Below, in pieces: positions 14,992 to 42,813 of a stretch of DNA of 42,813 nt (positions are counted from its first letter, which is position 1; the number at the start of each line of letters is the position of its first letter). The stretch is from Thiotrichales bacterium (GTDB lineage Bacteria; Pseudomonadota; Gammaproteobacteria; Thiomicrospirales; Thiomicrospiraceae). The notes below the pieces were generated by a model. That model had not been told where the DNA came from and made no database searches. It saw nothing but the letters and a program-made list of their open reading frames with translations. The position numbers were made by a program, and so were the translations under genes. Location of the stretch: positions 1-42,813 of the forward strand of contig JAFGXP010000006.1 in assembly GCA_016936535.1 (NCBI GenBank), given 5' to 3'.

Positions 14992-16017
14992 ATGTTAAGT
15001 GACCGTTACCAGATGTTGTTTAAAAACCTGATGGGATTATACCTGAGCGACGGCAAACCGGTAGGGTCGAGCACACTCAGTAAATTACCTGAAGTGTCAT
15101 TGAGTTCGGCCACAGTCCGTAATGTATTAGCCGATTTAGAACAAATGGGGCTGCTGCACTCTCCACATACGTCGGCAGGACGCGTGCCGACTGATTTGGG
15201 CTATCGTTTTTTTGTGGACAGTCTTTTGACTTTTCAGCTGCCGACACTTGGACATGAGCACGCGATTCGCCAGCAGCTCTCCACCGATTTAAATCAAGAC
15301 CGTCTCTTACAAGAGACCGCGAAGCTGCTGTCTGGGATGACAGGAATGGCCAGTGTGGTGATGTTGCCATCCAAAGCTCAAGAGACCTTGCAGCAAGTCG
15401 ATTTTCTTATGCTTTCACCTAAGCGGGTTTTGATGGTTTTGGTTTTTAGCGATCAGGATGTTCAGAACCGAGTCGTGGAGCTGGAACAATCGATTTCGGC
15501 CGATCAGTTACATGCCTTAGCCAATTTTTTGAATGCCGAGTGCTTGGGGTTAAGTTTACGTCATGCCCGGGCTAAATTGATGGCGACCTTAGCGCGCGTA
15601 GAGCAGGAGCATCAAACGGCCGAATTGGCGTTGCTGCAATCGGCGGATGCCTTACTGAGCCAACAAGCCAGTGAGCGGCGGCCGTTAATGGTGGCGGGAA
15701 AAACGAAGTTAATTGATTATGAAGAGTTTGCGGATTCGCAAAAGCTGCGTCAACTCTACCATGCTTTGCAGGACGAACAGGCGCTCCTCGAGCTTTTTGA
15801 TAAGACCCTTCAAGCGCCGGGTTTAAAAGTGTTTATTGGCAGTGAATTTGGTGATGATGTTTACCAGAGTTGCAGTTTGGTGGCTCGGCCTTACACCATG
15901 GAAGGGGAAGTGCTCGGTGTCTTGGGGGTGATCGGTCCCAGTCGAATGAATTATCAAAAAGTGGTCCCGCAGGTCGATTTGACAGGGAAAATTTTGAGCT
16001 CACTCTTGAAAAAATAG
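14992..16017 (+). CDS. hrcA: Heat-inducible transcription repressor HrcA
   Basis: Binds CIRCE and represses chaperone genes; activity depends on GroE in known cases. The N-terminal winged helix reads LYLSDGKPVGSSTLSKL, SSATVRNVLADLEQMGLLHSPHTSAGRVPTDLGYRFFVD. The C-terminal GAF-like half ends with VLGVIGPSRMNYQKVVPQVD. It has 341 residues, typical of the family. It is first in hrcA-grpE-dnaK-dnaJ. Pseudomonas and E. coli lack HrcA, so this lineage has kept it. The ribosome-binding site is weak, which would limit repressor synthesis. Confidence 0.96.
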   Translation: MLSDRYQMLFKNLMGLYLSDGKPVGSSTLSKLPEVSLSSATVRNVLADLEQMGLLHSPHTSAGRVPTDLGYRFFVDSLLTFQLPTLGHEHAIRQQLSTDLNQDRLLQETAKLLSGMTGMASVVMLPSKAQETLQQVDFLMLSPKRVLMVLVFSDQDVQNRVVELEQSISADQLHALANFLNAECLGLSLRHARAKLMATLARVEQEHQTAELALLQSADALLSQQASERRPLMVAGKTKLIDYEEFADSQKLRQLYHALQDEQALLELFDKTLQAPGLKVFIGSEFGDDVYQSCSLVARPYTMEGEVLGVLGVIGPSRMNYQKVVPQVDLTGKILSSLLKK

Positions 16018-16124
16018 TTTACGCCCTTATCACAAACGCCAGTCGTGCCAGAAGGGCAGCGCCAATCGCTTCGCGGATGCGCGCCAATAAATTCAAATTT
16101 TATGACTGAAAAAAGGAATCTACA

Positions 16125-16712
16125 GTGACGCAATCGAACTCGAACCAGACAGAACACCCTAAACACCAAGCTGATGCGGGAGTGGAAACAGCTCAAGATG
16201 CTATGCAACAAAGTGAGGCCGAGCTTGAGCAAGCTCAGCAAACCATCGAACAAGATATTCAATCCTTGTTAATTGAGGCACAAAACGAAGCGGCCAAGCA
16301 CCGTGACATGGCGCTACGTTTACAGGCGGATATGGAAAACCTGCGCCGTCGTACGCGGTTAGATGTCGAGAACGCCCACAAGTATGCGTTGGAAAAGTTC
16401 GTTGCAGCGCTATTGCCGGCAATGGATTCGATGGAGATGGGCATTGTGGCTTCTGCTAAAGAAGAAGCGACCAAAGAAAGTATTCGCGAGGGTGTGGAGA
16501 TGACCTTCAAGCAATTATTGGATGTTTTGGCCGATTTTCAGGTAGAGCGTATTGATCCCCTTGGTGAAAAATTTAACCCGCAAGAGCAAGAGGCTTTAAC
16601 TATGGTGCCTTCACCGGCACATGAGTCGCAAACCGTAATGGATGTGATTCAGAAAGGGTACAAGTTGAATGAGCGCTTGGTGCGACCAGCGCGTGTGGTT
16701 GTTGCGCAATAG
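16125..16712 (+). CDS. grpE: Nucleotide exchange factor GrpE
   Basis: Releases ADP from DnaK. A 195-residue protein with an acidic, glutamine-rich coiled-coil N-terminus (about residues 1-60), then ALRLQADMENLRRRTRLDVENAHKYALEKF and a C-terminal beta domain with FNPQEQEALTMVPS and LNERLVRPARVVVAQ. The GTG start at 16125 has AAAGGAAT about 6 bases upstream. It is 107 bp after hrcA in the same direction. Confidence 0.95.
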   Translation: MTQSNSNQTEHPKHQADAGVETAQDAMQQSEAELEQAQQTIEQDIQSLLIEAQNEAAKHRDMALRLQADMENLRRRTRLDVENAHKYALEKFVAALLPAMDSMEMGIVASAKEEATKESIREGVEMTFKQLLDVLADFQVERIDPLGEKFNPQEQEALTMVPSPAHESQTVMDVIQKGYKLNERLVRPARVVVAQ

Positions 16713-16745
16713 GCGCAATAAAAAGAAAAAAAGCGTGTTGGATGG

Positions 16746-16774
16746 CTTGAAAGCAAAAAAACCAGCCCTATAAA
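16746..16774 (+). promoter_or_regulatory. Sigma-32 (RpoH)-type heat-shock promoter before dnaK
   Basis: CTTGAAA at 16746-16752, a 13-nt spacer, and CCCTATAAA at 16766-16774. This is close to the RpoH consensus CTTGAAA-N11..15-CCCCATNTA. It is 114 bp before the dnaK ATG, in the grpE-dnaK gap. Confidence 0.8.
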
Positions 16775-16888
16775 CACTTCAAATTGAAACCGTAAGCTTT
16801 AAAAGTCGGTTTTTGGATTTAACCTTAACGGATCAGACTCTGGAAAGCGCACGGCACTTTCCCTTAAAAGAATTGGAGAAATGACAAA

Positions 16889-18805
16889 ATGGCAAAAATT
16901 ATTGGTATTGACCTAGGTACAACAAACTCTTGTGTTTCAGTCATGGAAGGCAAAGAGGTCAAAGTAATTCCAAACGCAGAAGGCGCTCGCACCACGCCTT
17001 CGATTGTGGCTTATACACAAGATGGTGAAATTTTGGTGGGGGATCCTGCAAAGCGTCAAGCGGTTACCAATCCTGAAAACACCTTGTTTGCGATCAAGCG
17101 TCTGATTGGTCGTCGTGCCGATGATAAGGTGGTTGCCAAAGACAAAGACATGGTTTCTTACAACATTGTCGCTGCTGACAATGGCGATGCGTGGGTTGAG
17201 GTAAATGGCAAAAAGCTATCACCGCAAGAAGTTTCCGCACGCACTCTGATGAAAATGAAGAAAACCGCCGAAGATTATCTTGGCCATGAAGTGACCGAGG
17301 CGGTGATTACTGTTCCGGCTTATTTTAATGATGCGCAGCGTCAAGCAACCAAAGATGCCGGTAAGATTGCCGGGTTGGAAGTTAAGCGTATTATCAACGA
17401 GCCTACCGCGGCTGCCCTGGCTTATGGGATGGATAAGGTAAAAAAAGACAGCAAAATTGCGGTCTATGACTTAGGTGGCGGAACCTTCGATATCTCGATT
17501 ATTGAAGTGGCGGATTTGGATGGTGAAAAGCAAATTGAGGTGCTTTCAACCAATGGTGATACCTTCCTTGGTGGGGAAGACTTTGATAATACGATTGTTG
17601 AGTACATTACCTCTGAGTTTAAAAAAGAACAGGGCGTTGATCTGAAAAAAGACAAGCTGGCACTTCAGCGTGTGCGCGAAGCAGCTGAAAAAGCCAAAAT
17701 TGAATTGTCCTCACGTGAACAGACCGACATCAATTTGCCTTACATTACCGCCGATGCAACTGGGCCTAAGCACTTGAATATGAAAATTACGCGTGCCAAA
17801 TTTGAAGCCCTTATTGAAGATTTGGTGCAGCGCTCGATTGAACCTTGCCGTATTGCGTTGAAAGACGCCGGCCTTAATGCTTCTGAAATTGATGATGTGA
17901 TTTTGGTTGGGGGTTCTACTCGCGTTCCAATGGTTCAAGCTAAGGTGAAGGCCTTCTTCGGTAAAGAGCCACGTCGTGATGTGAATCCAGATGAAGCGGT
18001 GGCGATGGGTGCGGCGATTCAAGGTGGGGTGCTTTCTGGTGAGGTAAATGACGTTCTGTTATTGGATGTCACGCCGCTCTCCTTGGGCATTGAAACCATG
18101 GGTGGTGTTATGACCAAGTTAATTGAGAAAAACACCACCATCCCAACCCGCAAGTCACAAGTGTTTTCTACGGCGGAAGATAATCAATCGGCTGTGACGA
18201 TTCATGTGTTGCAAGGTGAACGTGAAATGGCCTCCGGCAATAAATCGTTGGGTCAATTTAATTTGGATGAAATTCCTTCAGCCCCACGTGGAACGCCCCA
18301 AATTGAGGTGACTTTCGATATTGATGCCAATGGTATCTTGAATGTTTCGGCAAAAGACAAAAACACCGGTAAAGAGCAGCACATCACGATTCAAGCCTCT
18401 TCTGGTTTGTCTGAAGCTGAAATTGAAAAGATGATTAAAGATGCCGAAGCGCACGCTGCAGAAGACCACAAAATGAAAGAGTTGGTTGAGACGCGTAACC
18501 AAGCGGACGCCGTGGTGCATAGCACGCGTAAAATGATGAAAGATGCCGAGGCGAATTTAACCGATGCTGAAAAAGAGCCGGTTGAGTCTGCCATTAAAGC
18601 GGTTGAAGAGTCCATTAAAGGCGATGACAAGGCAGCGATTGAAGCGGCCATGCAAAAGCTGATGGAAGCCAGTCAGGCGATTGCTCAAAAGGCGCAAGCT
18701 GGAGGGCAATCGGGTACCCAGGATGCGAAACAACAAGGTTCAAGCAAAGCCGATGATGATGACATCGTCGATGCCGAGTTTGAAGAGGTTAACGATAAGA
18801 AATAA
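16889..18805 (+). CDS. dnaK: Chaperone DnaK (Hsp70)
   Basis: ATP-dependent folding chaperone working with DnaJ and GrpE. The 638-residue protein starts [16 protein letters not shown] (phosphate-1 loop). It has [13 protein letters not shown] (phosphate-2), [13 protein letters not shown], the linker [19 protein letters not shown] before the substrate-binding domain, and the C-terminal end [13 protein letters not shown] that co-chaperones recognise. GGAGAAA precedes the ATG. Besides read-through from hrcA-grpE it has its own sigma-32-like promoter. Confidence 0.98.
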
Positions 18806-18828
18806 GCACTAAGGTGTGAGCCTTTGCT

Positions 18829-18898
18829 AGCACGAAGCGAATCCTTTTCTTGACAAGAGTCGTATGTGGCTCTGAAGAGATTCCATCCGCTTCGTGCT
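18829..18898 (+). other. Long stem-loop between dnaK and dnaJ
   Basis: A perfect 11-bp stem (AGCACGAAGCG with CGCTTCGTGCT) encloses further complementary pieces (GAATC/GATTC, AGAG/CTCT), giving a roughly 70-nt hairpin followed by TTTGTGTTT. It could be a partial terminator or an RNA-stability element that lowers DnaJ relative to DnaK. A tandem 14-bp repeat (AATATCGACCTTTT twice, 18909-18936) lies just after it. Confidence 0.6.
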
Positions 18899-19066
18899 TT
18901 TGTGTTTAAATATCGACCTTTTAATATCGACCTTTTCCGGTTAGGCGTTATCAGCCGGTTAAGGGTTAACCGTTAGCAATTTCGAGTTAATAATCCAAAA
19001 ACGATTGCATCGCAAAAGGTTCAGTCGGTTTTTGATTCTTCACTGCAACAGAAAAGTACCCCGCAT

Positions 19067-21027
<1,961 letters not shown>

Positions 21028-37977: not shown

Positions 37978-38229
37978 AAGAAATCCTTTAAAAGTATCTG
38001 TTTTTGAGTGGCGCTCATCATAACCGAATGCGCCCATTTTCTTTAGGGGCGTTTGTCCAAAATTCAAGGGTAAGGGGTCGCCAAATGCAGAATACCGAGT
38101 TAAATAAATTGTTTTTTGATAAGTCGTTTTGCATCAAACACAGCCGTCTTGTGTTCTGTGCCTTTTTAACAGGCGCTTTGCAGTAAAATCGAGAAAATTT
38201 TGCTTTCTAATCAATGAAATGGAGATGGG

Positions 38230-38735: not shown

Positions 38736-40388
38736 TTATCTTGGGTGAGTCTTCACTTTACGCGAAATTGGCGGCTTTTTACTCGGCTTTAAAATGGTTG
38801 AGCGCGCCTGTTTGGCAGTTTGCGGATAGTCAAGATTGTAGTGAAGACCACGACTTTCTTTTCGTTTTTGAGCGCATAACACCATGAGTTCGGCGACCAT
38901 CGTTAAGTTACGCAATTCGAGCAGGTCGCTGCTCAGGGTGTGCTGATGGTAATATTCGTTGATTTCGTTTTGTAGCGTACGAATCCGTTTTAGCGCACGT
39001 TTGAGACGACGGTTGGTACGGACAATACCGACGTAGTCCCACATAACGCGTCTTACTTCATCCCAATCGTGACTGACCATGATCTTTTCTTTGGGGTCTG
39101 TGATGCCGCTGGTGTCCCAAGGCTTGGCCTCAAAAGTGTGCTCCGCCAACGCACTGAATGATTTTTCAATACTTTGATGCGCTAATTTGGCAAACACCAA
39201 GCCTTCGGCCAAGGAGTTGCTTGCTAGCCGATTTGCGCCATGCAATCCGGTGCAGGCGGTTTCTCCAATTGCATAGAGTCCTTCTAAATCGGTTTTTCCT
39301 TCTAAGTTGGTGATCACGCCACCGCAGGTGTAATGGGCCGCCGGCACAACGGGAATACACTCTTTTGTCATGTCAATGCCCACTTTTTTACAGCGTTCAT
39401 AAATGGTCGGAAAGTGCTGTTTAATAAATTTGGCTGGCTTGTGCGAAATATCAAGATAAACGCAGTCAATACCGTGTTTTTTCATCTCTTGGTCGATGGC
39501 GCGCGCCACAATATCACGCGGAGCTAAATCGGCGCGCGGATCGTAATCGCGCATAAAAGGCGTGCCGTTTGGTAAGCGTAAAATACCGCCTTCTCCGCGC
39601 ACGGCTTCGGTAATCAAAAAGGAACGATCTTTGGGATGATAAAGACAGGTAGGGTGGAACTGATTAAATTCGAGGTTCGCAACCCGGCAACCCGCACGCC
39701 AGGCCATCGCAATTCCATCCCCAGTCGAGGTATCTGGATTACTGGTGTAAAGGTAGGCTTTAGAAGCACCACCGGTTGCTAAAACGGTAAAAGAAGCGGT
39801 TAAGGCATAGACTTGATTTTCGGTTTTATTCAAGACATAAGCACCCATGCAACGGTTGCGTTTGCGATTTAGAATTAAGTCAATCGACATGTGCTCAGGC
39901 AGCAGTTCAATGTTTGGATGTTGTTGTACTTGGTTTATTAAGGCTTGTGCAACCGATAGGCCAGTATGATCGGCAACATGGATCACTCGACGATGGCTAT
40001 GCCCACCTTCTTTGGTTAAATGATAGGGGAAGTTTTGGGCATTAGCGCCTTCTGTCGTGAAGTTGACGCCAAATTGTACCAGCTGCAAAATCTCTTCGGC
40101 GGCATGGGTTGCCACTACGGCCACGGCTTTTTCGTCGCATAAACCGGCACCGGCCACTTCGGTGTCCCGAATGTGCGCGTCAATGCTGTCAAAAGGGTCC
40201 AATACGGCAGCGATGCCGCCTTGGGCGTAGCTGGTGCTGCCTTCGTGAACCGCCGATTTGGCCAGAACGAGCACGCGATGGTTTTGGGCTAACTTGAGGG
40301 CAATCGAAAGTCCGGCAATGCCACTGCCAATAACCAAGACGTCGGTTGTTTTGGTGTAGGGATGCAGCAAGGTCGTTGTCGATGTCAT
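38736..40388 (-). CDS. nadB: L-aspartate oxidase
   Basis: FAD enzyme making iminoaspartate, first step of NAD synthesis. The 550-residue protein has the FAD loop VIGSGIAGLSIALKL, STSYAQGGIAAVLDPFDS, HRRVIHVADHTG, the active-site segment FNQFHPTCLYHP and ITEAVRGEGGILR, and the C-terminal GIVRTNRRLKRALKRI. In E. coli and Pseudomonas nadB is divergent from the rpoE-rseABC(-mucD) operon. Here it is divergent from rseC, 148 bp away. Confidence 0.97.
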   Translation of the reverse strand: MTSTTTLLHPYTKTTDVLVIGSGIAGLSIALKLAQNHRVLVLAKSAVHEGSTSYAQGGIAAVLDPFDSIDAHIRDTEVAGAGLCDEKAVAVVATHAAEEILQLVQFGVNFTTEGANAQNFPYHLTKEGGHSHRRVIHVADHTGLSVAQALINQVQQHPNIELLPEHMSIDLILNRKRNRCMGAYVLNKTENQVYALTASFTVLATGGASKAYLYTSNPDTSTGDGIAMAWRAGCRVANLEFNQFHPTCLYHPKDRSFLITEAVRGEGGILRLPNGTPFMRDYDPRADLAPRDIVARAIDQEMKKHGIDCVYLDISHKPAKFIKQHFPTIYERCKKVGIDMTKECIPVVPAAHYTCGGVITNLEGKTDLEGLYAIGETACTGLHGANRLASNSLAEGLVFAKLAHQSIEKSFSALAEHTFEAKPWDTSGITDPKEKIMVSHDWDEVRRVMWDYVGIVRTNRRLKRALKRIRTLQNEINEYYHQHTLSSDLLELRNLTMVAELMVLCAQKRKESRGLHYNLDYPQTAKQARSTILKPSKKPPISRKVKTHPR

Positions 40389-40536
40389 AGTGGTCTCGTC
40401 AGGAGTGCGGAAAGATTGGGCTTATTCTAGGGATCGTGCAGGTAAACGCAAGTAACGTGATGGAGTAAAGGGGCTTGAAAATCGGTAAGAAGCCCTCTAC
40501 ATTGCCAATAGGCTTAACGAAAAGGAATCCATCGCT

Positions 40537-41064
40537 GTGAAATCAAACGACCCTCCGCCCTCAAGGGTACCGGTTCAGCCCCCCCCGCCTTTAGCGCAAA
40601 AACCGCAAGTGATTGAGCGCGCGGAGGTGATTGGCGTAGAAGGGGATAGGGTATGGGTGCAGTTGGTGGCCAAAGGCTGTCAAGGCTGTGGGCAGAGTGG
40701 CAGTTGCGGGACCTCCGCTTTGGCCAATCTGTTTGCACGTCCGCAACAAAAAGCCCTGTGCATACCAAATCGACTCGGTGCCAAGCTCGGTGATCAGGTG
40801 GATTTGTCTCTGGATGAGTCACGATTGGTCAAATATTCTGCTTTAGCCTATGGCTTACCATTAATTTTGTTTTTTGGCGGTGCCTTACTGTTGCAATGGT
40901 TGGCACAAGCCAGCGCTGCTGCGGGTTGGCACGCAGTTAACCCTGAAACTTTTGCCGTGTTGGGCGCTTTTTCAGGGTTAATTTTAGGGTGGTGGCTAAG
41001 TCGGTTTTGGTTAGCGCCGGTTACGCCGCAAATCTGCGCAGTGTTTCCATTGCAAACTCGGTAA
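40537..41064 (+). CDS. rseC: RseC / MucC-like sigma-E regulator
   Basis: Inner-membrane protein of the RseC/MucC family, linked to sigma-E control and, in other species, to reduction of SoxR. The 175-residue protein has a proline-rich N-terminus (PPPSRVP...QPPPP), the cysteine motif CQGCGQSGSCG (CxxCxxxxxC), and two membrane helices (about residues 100-120 and 138-158). GTG start at 40537, with AAGGAA about 9 bases upstream. The gene usually follows rpoE-rseA-rseB; those are absent here. mucD follows after 90 bp. Confidence 0.9.
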   Translation: MKSNDPPPSRVPVQPPPPLAQKPQVIERAEVIGVEGDRVWVQLVAKGCQGCGQSGSCGTSALANLFARPQQKALCIPNRLGAKLGDQVDLSLDESRLVKYSALAYGLPLILFFGGALLLQWLAQASAAAGWHAVNPETFAVLGAFSGLILGWWLSRFWLAPVTPQICAVFPLQTR

Positions 41065-41154
41065 ATCAAAGAAAATGCCATTTCTTCTGGTAAAAGCGGT
41101 GGTGTTTTCAGTGTGAACAGACTCAGTGTCTGACTTTTAAAAAAGGATAACAAC

Positions 41155-42594
41155 ATGAAGCAAATTCTGTTTTTGCCCAAACCGTTTGGATTTTCCGTGC
41201 TGCTTGCGTTGGTGTTTTTACTCCAAACAAGTTTTGCCTTTGCCAATCCAGCAAAATACGGCCTACCCGATTTCTCCCAACTTGCAGAAGACAATAACCA
41301 AGTTGTGGTCAATATCTCCAGTATCAAAAATGTCAAAACGGCCAATGCACAAGCGCAGATTCCACCGCAATTTCGAGGTATGCCGGAGGAGCTACTTCGC
41401 CATTTCTTTGGCATTCCGCCTGAAAGACTCAAGCCAGAAGGGGATGAATCTACCCGTAAGCAACCTTTGTCCTTGGGTTCTGGGTTTATTGTCAGTGCCG
41501 ATGGCTACATTCTGACCAATCATCACGTGATTGAAGGGGCCGATGAAATCCTAGTCAGAATGCGAAATCGTAAAGAGTTTAAGGCAGAACTGATTGGCAG
41601 TGATGCGCGTACGGATGTGGCTTTATTAAAAGTCAACGCCGATGGTTTGCCGTTCGCGAAAATCGGTACCAGTAAAAGCTTGCGCGTCGGTCAGTGGGTT
41701 TTGGCGATTGGTGAGCCTTTCGGTTTGGATTATACCGTGACCCATGGGATTGTCTCGGCCTTAGGGCGCGCATTGCCGGAAGATACCTATGTTCCGTTTA
41801 TCCAAACTGACGTGGCGATTAACCCAGGGAATTCTGGTGGGCCCTTGTTCAACTTAGACGGTGAAGTGGTGGGGATTAATTCGCAAATCTACTCCAGCAG
41901 CGGTGGGTCGGTCGGTTTATCTTTTTCAATTCCGATTGACGTAGCGATGAATGTTTATGAGCAGCTCAAAGCCAGCGGTAAGGTAGTTCGTGGTTTCTTG
42001 GGGGTGCAAATCCAAGAGGTGACCAGTGATCTTTCTGAATCTTTCGGTCTCGAAAAACCGTCAGGGGCTCTAGTTGGCCAGGTGTATGACAATACGCCCG
42101 CTAAGGAGTATGGAATCGAAGCCGGCGACATTATTTTAGAGTTTGATGGTCGCAGCATTGAAAAATCGTCAGACTTGCCGCCGATTGTTGGGATTACGCC
42201 AATCGATAAAAAGGTCAAAGTGAAATTGATGCGTCAAGGCAAAATCAAGGTCTTGGAGTTGCGGTTAACCTCTTTGGAAAACTCGGAACAGCTTGCTTCT
42301 GGTAACAAACAGATTAAGAGTAATCGTCTTGGTGCAACGGTTGAGGCTTTAAGCAGTGACGAGTTAAAAGAGCTGAGCTTGCCTTATGGTGTGCGAGTGG
42401 TAGAAGTTAATAAAGGTCCCGCAGAGCAAGCCGGTGTCCGCAATGGCGATATTCTGGTCACCATTGATTTTAAGGCGATTCAGAGCGTCAAAGAGCTCAA
42501 CCAATTGCTGCAAGCGCTGCCAAAAAGTCGCTCCTTACCGATGCGCGTGATTCGTAATGGTCGTTCCCTGTTTTTACCCTTGGTCTTGGATTGA
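41155..42594 (+). CDS. mucD: Periplasmic serine protease DegP/MucD family
   Basis: Periplasmic protease/chaperone of the HtrA family. The signal peptide is the first 30 residues (cleavage near AFA-NP). The trypsin-like domain has His in TNHHVIEG, Asp in DARTDVALLKV and Ser in NPGNSGGPLFN. Two PDZ domains follow (GFLGVQIQEV... and LGATVEALSSDELKELSLPYGVRVVEV...). The full length of 479 residues agrees with MucD. AAGGATA before the ATG at 41155. In Pseudomonas mucD ends the algU-mucABCD operon; here it follows rseC. Confidence 0.95.
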   Translation: MKQILFLPKPFGFSVLLALVFLLQTSFAFANPAKYGLPDFSQLAEDNNQVVVNISSIKNVKTANAQAQIPPQFRGMPEELLRHFFGIPPERLKPEGDESTRKQPLSLGSGFIVSADGYILTNHHVIEGADEILVRMRNRKEFKAELIGSDARTDVALLKVNADGLPFAKIGTSKSLRVGQWVLAIGEPFGLDYTVTHGIVSALGRALPEDTYVPFIQTDVAINPGNSGGPLFNLDGEVVGINSQIYSSSGGSVGLSFSIPIDVAMNVYEQLKASGKVVRGFLGVQIQEVTSDLSESFGLEKPSGALVGQVYDNTPAKEYGIEAGDIILEFDGRSIEKSSDLPPIVGITPIDKKVKVKLMRQGKIKVLELRLTSLENSEQLASGNKQIKSNRLGATVEALSSDELKELSLPYGVRVVEVNKGPAEQAGVRNGDILVTIDFKAIQSVKELNQLLQALPKSRSLPMRVIRNGRSLFLPLVLD

Positions 42595-42813
42595 GGAATT
42601 TTTAACAGACCTGCCGAAATTGGCGTAAAATACCGCTCAACTTTTGAGAAGCTACCCCGCTAAACCCCTTGTCCGTTTAATATTTATGACAAGGGAGCAA
42701 AAAGGGGGCTTACTTAGATGCCTTAGTTTGTCGCTTGCCGCGTTTGCGGGCAATCTGGTGCAGCAAAGTCGGTCATGCAGAGGGGCGAAATCCGCCCCTT
42801 TTTTGTTCATTAC
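42595..42813 (+). other. Structured intergenic stretch ending in a strong terminator
   Basis: After mucD come a hairpin CCCTTGTC/GACAAGGG (42666-42673 with 42688-42695), a second TTGCC...GGCAA dyad around 42735-42752, and at 42781-42799 an intrinsic terminator AGGGGCG / CGCCCCT followed by TTTTTG. It could be the 3' UTR of mucD or a separate small RNA. The window ends at 42813, so the right context is missing. Confidence 0.5.
42781..42805 (+). terminator. Strong intrinsic terminator
   Basis: The 7-bp GC-rich stem AGGGGCG / CGCCCCT with loop AAATC is followed by six Ts. It ends mucD or a small RNA gene in 42595-42780. Confidence 0.9.

Follow-up and report, generated by a model that had tools for sequence, protein, structure and literature searches.

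Sigma-E is a central envelope stress system of Gammaproteobacteria, and the locus described here raises the question of what holds the remainder of its operon in place once the sigma factor is no longer there. The window, i.e., the whole stretch of 42,813 nt that was analysed, corresponds to contig C19 of a Thiomicrorhabdus-like draft genome (Thiotrichales bacterium, order Thiomicrospirales; 2.12 Mb in 49 contigs, 97.5% complete). Near its end, nadB faces rseC directly and mucD follows, in this arrangement:

38736-40388, reverse strand: nadB, L-aspartate oxidase, the divergent neighbour (NCBIfam PRK09077, 859 bits; TIGR00551, 633 bits)
40389-40536: intergenic region of 148 bp, the site of rpoE, rseA and rseB in the class loci sampled elsewhere
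40537-41064, forward strand: rseC (RseC/MucC family), 175 aa (Pfam PF04246 RseC_MucC, 82.3 bits against a gathering score of 24.4)
41155-42594, forward strand: mucD, DegP/HtrA-like periplasmic serine protease (Do family) with PDZ domains (TIGR02037, 481 bits against a cut-off of 416; PF13365 and PDZ)
42779-42801, forward strand: terminator-like hairpin 3′ of mucD, close to the window end (one of 5 sites of this kind detected, against 3.1 expected from shuffles)

The arrangement of nadB, the 148 bp gap, rseC and mucD is exactly that of the preliminary description, made from the sequence alone. The ORF scan of the window found no ORF of at least 80 aa contained in the gap; a minus-strand ORF within rseC extends 23 bases into it. 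Among the best 80 matches listed, the closest named relatives of NadB were four Thiomicrorhabdus records with 72-75% identity, and other groups reached at most 62%. The RseC protein scored 37.7 with the narrower NCBIfam model of E. coli-type RseC, below its cut-off of 184; it carries the cysteine motif CX2CX5C (CQGCGQSGSC at residue 48) and has two hydrophobic segments by eye, one according to a simple hydropathy count. MucD contains TNHHV, TDVALL and GNSGG, which we take to be the His, Asp and Ser motifs of the trypsin-like domain.

The same arrangement was found throughout the order. Besides the source, we fetched and compared 32 RseC loci of the order, and nadB was directly divergent from rseC in 30 of them, mucD lay behind rseC in all 32 (one, L066, is cut by a contig end inside mucD) and lepA followed mucD in 30, being not seen in L065 and L066; the layout occurs in all 7 genera. 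Where nadB was in reach, the gap between nadB and rseC measured 55-406 bp in 28 loci, window included, and came out negative in three others as a result of taking the longest, and hence over-long, ORFs. Two loci deviated. In L063 (genome G014) genes resembling those for RlmB and RNase R, recognised by eye from the translation (L063 6174-9425), lie beside rseC and replace nadB, so that the divergent pair is broken there, and in L069 (G054) an insert of 1.7 kb separates nadB from rseC (gap 1,665 bp). A 327 aa ORF in the latter region (L069 6530-7513) matches the YhgA-like putative transposase family weakly and below its cut-off. An alignment of the whole gap between the source genome and three close relatives showed little conservation besides short motifs. 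An assembly error or an incomplete genome, for which the 49-contig draft state could be adduced, is practically ruled out by the identical layout in many assemblies, including the single-contig genomes G061, G052 and G053.

Had the sigma-E core moved or had it been lost? Both options had been raised at the outset, together with the suggestion to search the genome for the three genes. We ran profile searches at family cut-offs on 62 order genomes, the source included, which represent 7 genera of a single family. RpoE over cut-off, RseB and RseA_N over cut-off were each found in 0 of the 62 genomes, apart from one weak RseA_N match in G026. In contrast, RseC exceeded its cut-off in 61 of 62, the sole miss (G036) being an 82% complete genome, and in all 50 genomes with at least 90% completeness and at most 5% contamination. 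The models for RpoE, RseA_N and RseB work, because the E. coli control was detected in these searches, as in that for RseC, and RpoE exceeded its cut-off in 146 of 204 genomes of the class. In the source genome itself, the search yielded no RpoE over cut-off and no match to RseB or RseA_N. There was only one RseC match and hence no second rseC; the finding that would have made the present copy a secondary duplicate, rpoE-rseA-rseB beside another rseC, is thus absent from this genome.

The RpoE model did pick up other ECF sigma factors, and these are what a relocated core would have to be sought among. The source genome has two such genes, with weak matches of 47.8 and 23.9 bits against the cut-off of 236, and 47 of the 62 order genomes gave a weak ECF match; 15 gave none at E ≤ 0.001. 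No ECF passed the RpoE cut-off, the best reaching 101 bits (G029), and RseB was absent from all 62. We rejected the two ECFs of the source genome as RpoE orthologs: besides their low RpoE scores, they have other partners (an RskA_C anti-sigma factor on contig C34, a protein with no Pfam match on C38) and score best with other ECF families, although below those families' own cut-offs. A relocation of the sigma-E core within the genome is therefore very improbable. One of the two pairs (L055 4410-6442, on C38) shares a setting with a pair in G026 (L075 4059-6535): in both, the ECF sigma gene and the gene for its anti-sigma-like partner have neighbours whose products are DsrE/DsrF-like and look exported. 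Two of three such proteins tested (L055, L075) matched DsrE over cut-off, and the C-terminal half of the anti-sigma-like partner resembles DsrE/DsrF-like proteins by eye. Possibly, this is a sulfur-sensing ECF system.

Could RpoE, RseA and RseB be present, but in forms too divergent to be recognised by the models? RseA is a short protein of variable sequence, and the weak RseA_N match in G026 (21.5 bits) does lie beside an ECF gene. We rejected this match as a hidden RseA, as it scores better as a zf-HC2 anti-sigma factor (26 against 20 bits) and lies near the DsrE-like genes. Against divergence stands that, at the thresholds given below, RseB was detected in 126 and RpoE in 155 of the 204 class genomes, and that the ancestral position leaves no space for the three genes. 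We regard this explanation as hardly more credible than relocation. Taken together, the sigma-E core of the order looks lost rather than moved, judging from the genome sequences, and of the two options it is the loss that stood.

The loss is older than the source genome, as it is order-wide in our sample. Ten loci from outside the order (L235-L244) show what may have preceded it: nadB, rpoE, rseB and mucD were each detected in all 10, rseA in 9, and rseC and lepA in 8, with nadB divergent from rpoE-rseA-rseB-rseC-mucD-lepA, and the loci of Pseudomonas, Kangiellaceae and others are concordant. Because these canonical loci were chosen via RseB (L235-L244 picked from genomes with RseB, L095-L124 found by it), they display the layout and not its frequency. 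Most likely, rpoE, rseA and rseB dropped out in the common ancestor of the order, since the class loci sampled elsewhere keep the three genes between nadB and rseC-mucD; the comparison with relatives that had been proposed would thus place the event in that ancestor. We found no report of sigma-E loss in this group in the open-access PMC literature searched.

Reduced loci were also observed outside the order. L207, L211 and L220 keep rpoE and rseA, with rseB undetected, and in L206 and L223 nadB lies beside rseC without rpoE (gaps of about 500 bp and about 90 bp, respectively). In the genome of L223, G252, neither RpoE (threshold 1e-40) nor RseB was detected, and G145, which bears the same genus code, has both. 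In G252 mucD was also undetected, and nadB faces rseC followed by lepA-lepB. In a LepA tree, the 11 order loci used formed one clade (97/100) together with the long-branched outsider L227, and L206, L219 and L223 were placed outside it, the position of L219 being unsure on its long branch; four rows without a full LepA (the window, L211, L236 and L241) were excluded. The sigma-E-less label requires 4 changes on this tree, at least 2 of them forced by well supported branches, which indicates that losses like that of the order occurred in other lineages too.

If the sigma factor is gone, why does rseC stay? In E. coli, RseC is described as a member of the Rsx SoxR-reducing system whose CX2CX5C motif can hold an Fe-S cluster (PMC11729352; also PMC12174285), and in C. 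ljungdahlii RseC is reported to be required for autotrophy and rnf expression (PMC9124969). We searched 204 genomes of the class, each at least 90% complete, for RseB and RseC (E 0.001), RnfC (1e-30) and RpoE (1e-40). Both RseC and RnfC were found in 112 genomes, RseC only in 9, RnfC only in 13 and neither in 70 (odds ratio 67). Among the RnfC-bearing genomes, RseC was present in 97 of 107 with RpoE versus 15 of 18 without it (p 0.40), and the RpoE-less genomes with RseC all had RnfC (15 of 15, 3 of them from this order), while 31 of 34 genomes without RseC and RpoE also lacked RnfC. At curated cut-offs for both proteins the four counts became 111, 8, 9 and 76, with three of the five sub-cut-off RnfC genomes identified from E-values, and in the RpoE-less genomes RseC and RnfC then coincided in 49 of 49 (15 both, 34 neither). 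The pattern persisted when each family was represented by a single genome (n = 141), the only subset corrected for relatedness, with counts of 77, 6, 9 and 49. Hence, in this class sample rseC tracks rnfC and, among genomes with rnfC, does not track rpoE. The link is not absolute, because rnfC is missing from 9 of the 121 genomes with rseC, and rseC from 13 of the 125 with rnfC, 4 of these 13 lying below the rnfC cut-off. RseC also retains some, weaker, connection with the sigma-E operon, since the 9 genomes with RseC among the 79 without RnfC all have RpoE (p 0.01).

Within the order, RnfC was found in 61 of 62 genomes, the one miss (G016) being 85% complete, and the source genome encodes a complete rnfABCDGE followed by nth (L254 4441-10221, contig C40; RnfC 491 bits). 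Of 33 RseC sequences from the order, 29, that of the source included, have an intact CX2CX5C motif and 4 an altered one. Because none of the 62 genomes had SoxR over its cut-off of 117 bits, the 4 weak matches scoring 58-70, a SoxR-reducing role of RseC is unlikely in the order and a role with Rnf is the better guess. In other genomes of the class, rseC lies immediately 5′ of rnfABCDGE in L217, and in L209 and L230-L234 a gene with a weak RsxB match (24-32 bits) is found no more than about 1 kb from a second, or separate, copy of rseC. The retention of RseC is probably explained by Rnf. It had been argued that, after a loss, rseC and mucD would have to work outside the sigma-E pathway; the surprise attached to this fades for RseC, for which it is the expected case given E. 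coli Rsx, C. ljungdahlii Rnf and the co-occurrence in the class.

With sigma-E lost, transcription of rseC-mucD cannot come from it. A residual sigma-E promoter before rseC was considered and rejected: with the consensus assumed to be GAACTT-N-TCTGA, the best site in the window has 4 mismatches of 11. As the counts before rseC in the order (2-4 mismatches, 26 values) and before 19 canonical rpoE genes (1-4) overlap, this crude measure discriminates poorly. The gap does contain a candidate promoter of another type, for which two heat-shock genes of the window served as internal yardsticks:

40474-40501, forward strand: sigma-32-like promoter match CTTGAAA-N12-CCCTCTACA upstream of rseC (13.1 bits; 1 of 100 shuffles as high)
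16005-16033, forward strand: sigma-32-like site upstream of grpE (16.8 bits; GrpE by Pfam)
16746-16774, forward strand: sigma-32-like site 5′ of dnaK (21.8 bits, the highest score among 310 upstreams; HSP70 by Pfam)

The published sigma-32 consensus is given as CTTGAAA-13/15 bp-CCCCAT (PMC3168786; similar in PMC545781), and our weight matrix was built from 15 Shewanella sites in a table of the former paper. We ran it on 310 gene upstreams from the window and the fetched stretches of the source genome. The dnaK site ranked 1st, grpE 2nd and rseC 4th, with the 99th percentile at 13.1 bits, and the third-ranked match, at the RnfC gene inside its operon, is probably due to chance. Other heat-shock genes scored 11.4 (hrcA; HrcA by Pfam), -2.5 (dnaJ, inside the operon) and 3.2 bits (a ClpB-like gene). 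On both strands of the whole window, six distinct places exceeded 12.5 bits. Three of them precede dnaK, grpE and rseC, the longest ygfZ ORF has one at its 5′ end, and the remaining two lie elsewhere. The hrcA-grpE-dnaK-dnaJ cluster occupies 14992-20215, and an HrcA gene and sigma-32-like sites co-occur there. Likewise as an observation of its own, the 14.7-bit site at ygfZ (38040-38068, reverse strand) overlaps the 5′ end of the longest ORF, whose true start may be further in, and ygfZ reached at least 13 bits in 5 of 22 loci, as if it were a heat-shock gene there too.

In the order, we scored 47 genomes, namely those with fetched sequence among the 61 RseC-bearing ones, six of them with a default of 250 bp as nadB was out of reach (G009 had no scorable stretch). 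Upstream of rseC, 18 reached 13 bits and 29 remained below, and in 26 of the 47 at most 5 of 100 dinucleotide shuffles scored as high. The value of 13 bits was not reached in g2 (0 of 3), g4 (0 of 1) and g5 (0 of 3), and part of g3 was also low. Across 33 loci, at least 13 bits were found for rseC in 12 of 33 and for other genes in 11 of 285 cases, with a p value (1e-7) that is too small because the rows are related. For nadB, the opposite reading of the same gap, the count was 0 of 32; mucD itself reached 13 bits in 2 of 33 loci (22.4 and 20.0 bits) and lepA in 2 of 30, both resembling terminator hairpins. None of rpoE, rseC and mucD scored above 6.9 bits in 24 loci retaining rpoE. Nor was a sigma-32-like site found at rseC in the other sigma-E-less loci L206, L223, L219, L205 and L208, and L221 scored 11.4. 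A search for rpoH gave no match in the fetched loci, which says little as they cover about 21% of the source genome. In P. aeruginosa, the main text of an RpoH regulon paper mentions neither mucD nor rseC (PMC9866376). From these motif matches it may be, tentatively and with slightly less than even confidence, that after the loss of sigma-E the order brought its envelope protease and the gene for its Rnf partner under the control of the cytoplasmic heat-shock sigma factor.

Two other readings of the control of rseC-mucD have to be weighed. Another ECF/anti-sigma pair or a two-component system, rather than sigma-32, might govern envelope stress and these two genes. ECF pairs are indeed present in the source genome, and there is a precedent in Acinetobacter, which is also without RpoE and for which BfmRS is named as one participant and the involvement of further systems is considered likely (PMC12153292). 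That 15 of 62 order genomes gave no ECF match with the RpoE model (E ≤ 0.001) speaks against such a pair, as weak evidence either way, and we consider a replacement regulator of this kind rather unlikely. A stronger competitor is a constitutive sigma-70 promoter, the resemblance to sigma-32 sites being incidental since TTGAA is common to both. The site in the window also reads as a sigma-70-like TTGAAA-N17-TACATT (40475-40503), one of 3 such sites in the stretch with 2.1 expected by chance, and several relatives have CTTGAAT-N14-type sites ending in GTAGCATATT that score just 8.2 bits in the sigma-32 model. The enrichment of sigma-32 matches at rseC over the other genes of the same, albeit related, loci speaks against this reading, and so do the absence of such matches for nadB on the other strand of the gap and the fact that the two top scores of the model belong to dnaK and grpE. 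To constitutive expression from sigma-70 we would give roughly one chance in three.

All parts of the locus belong to known families, and their arrangement is that of a known sigma-E locus minus its core. With the Pseudomonas algU-mucA-mucB-mucC-mucD locus it shares the divergent nadB, rseC (mucC), mucD and, in most loci of the order, the subsequent lepA-lepB in the same orientation, whereas algU, mucA and mucB (rpoE, rseA, rseB) are missing here and undetected in the sampled order. The E. coli rpoE-rseABC operon and Rsx system (RsxABCDGE, RseC, ApbE) has in common with it an RseC with CX2CX5C and a complete rsx/rnfABCDGE-nth operon elsewhere in the genome, but the order is without the sigma-E operon and SoxR is not over cut-off. 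In C. ljungdahlii, as described in PMC9124969, RseC likewise lies outside a sigma-E operon and goes along with Rnf and autotrophic growth; in that organism rseC is a neighbour of rnf and autotrophy is abolished when rseC is deleted, whereas in the order it sits at the ancestral sigma-E site. Acinetobacter, reported to be without RpoE (PMC12153292), is another gammaproteobacterial lineage of this kind and a separate one.

The explanation that we favour, with good though not full confidence, joins the ancestral loss of the sigma-E core, the keeping of rseC for Rnf and of mucD as a general protease, and a sigma-32-type promoter in part of the order. The ancestor of the order would have had nadB divergent from rpoE-rseA-rseB-rseC-mucD-lepA-lepB and would then have lost rpoE, rseA and rseB; the absence and the layout are observed, and the direction follows from the comparison of loci. 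The rseC gene would have been retained for a selected role with the Rnf/Rsx electron-transfer complex, with which it is associated in the genomes, and not with sigma-E, its product probably tuning or assembling Rnf through an Fe-S-type cysteine motif at the membrane. The mucD product presumably persists as a general periplasmic protease and chaperone, to judge from its family, and, at least in part of the order, rseC-mucD are probably transcribed from a sigma-32-type promoter within the shortened gap.

An order without detected sigma-E that has kept the rest of the locus reveals which parts of it are separable. It bears on why rseC sits in the sigma-E operon at all, as the presence of rseC goes with Rnf more closely than with the sigma factor, and it offers, with a putative heat-shock promoter before a periplasmic protease, a case of stress-regulon rewiring that can be tested in laboratory strains of environmental origin. 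If this is true, heat-shock control would span both cell compartments in these sulfur-oxidising autotrophs, and the order would be a natural experiment on how a widespread envelope stress system becomes dispensable.
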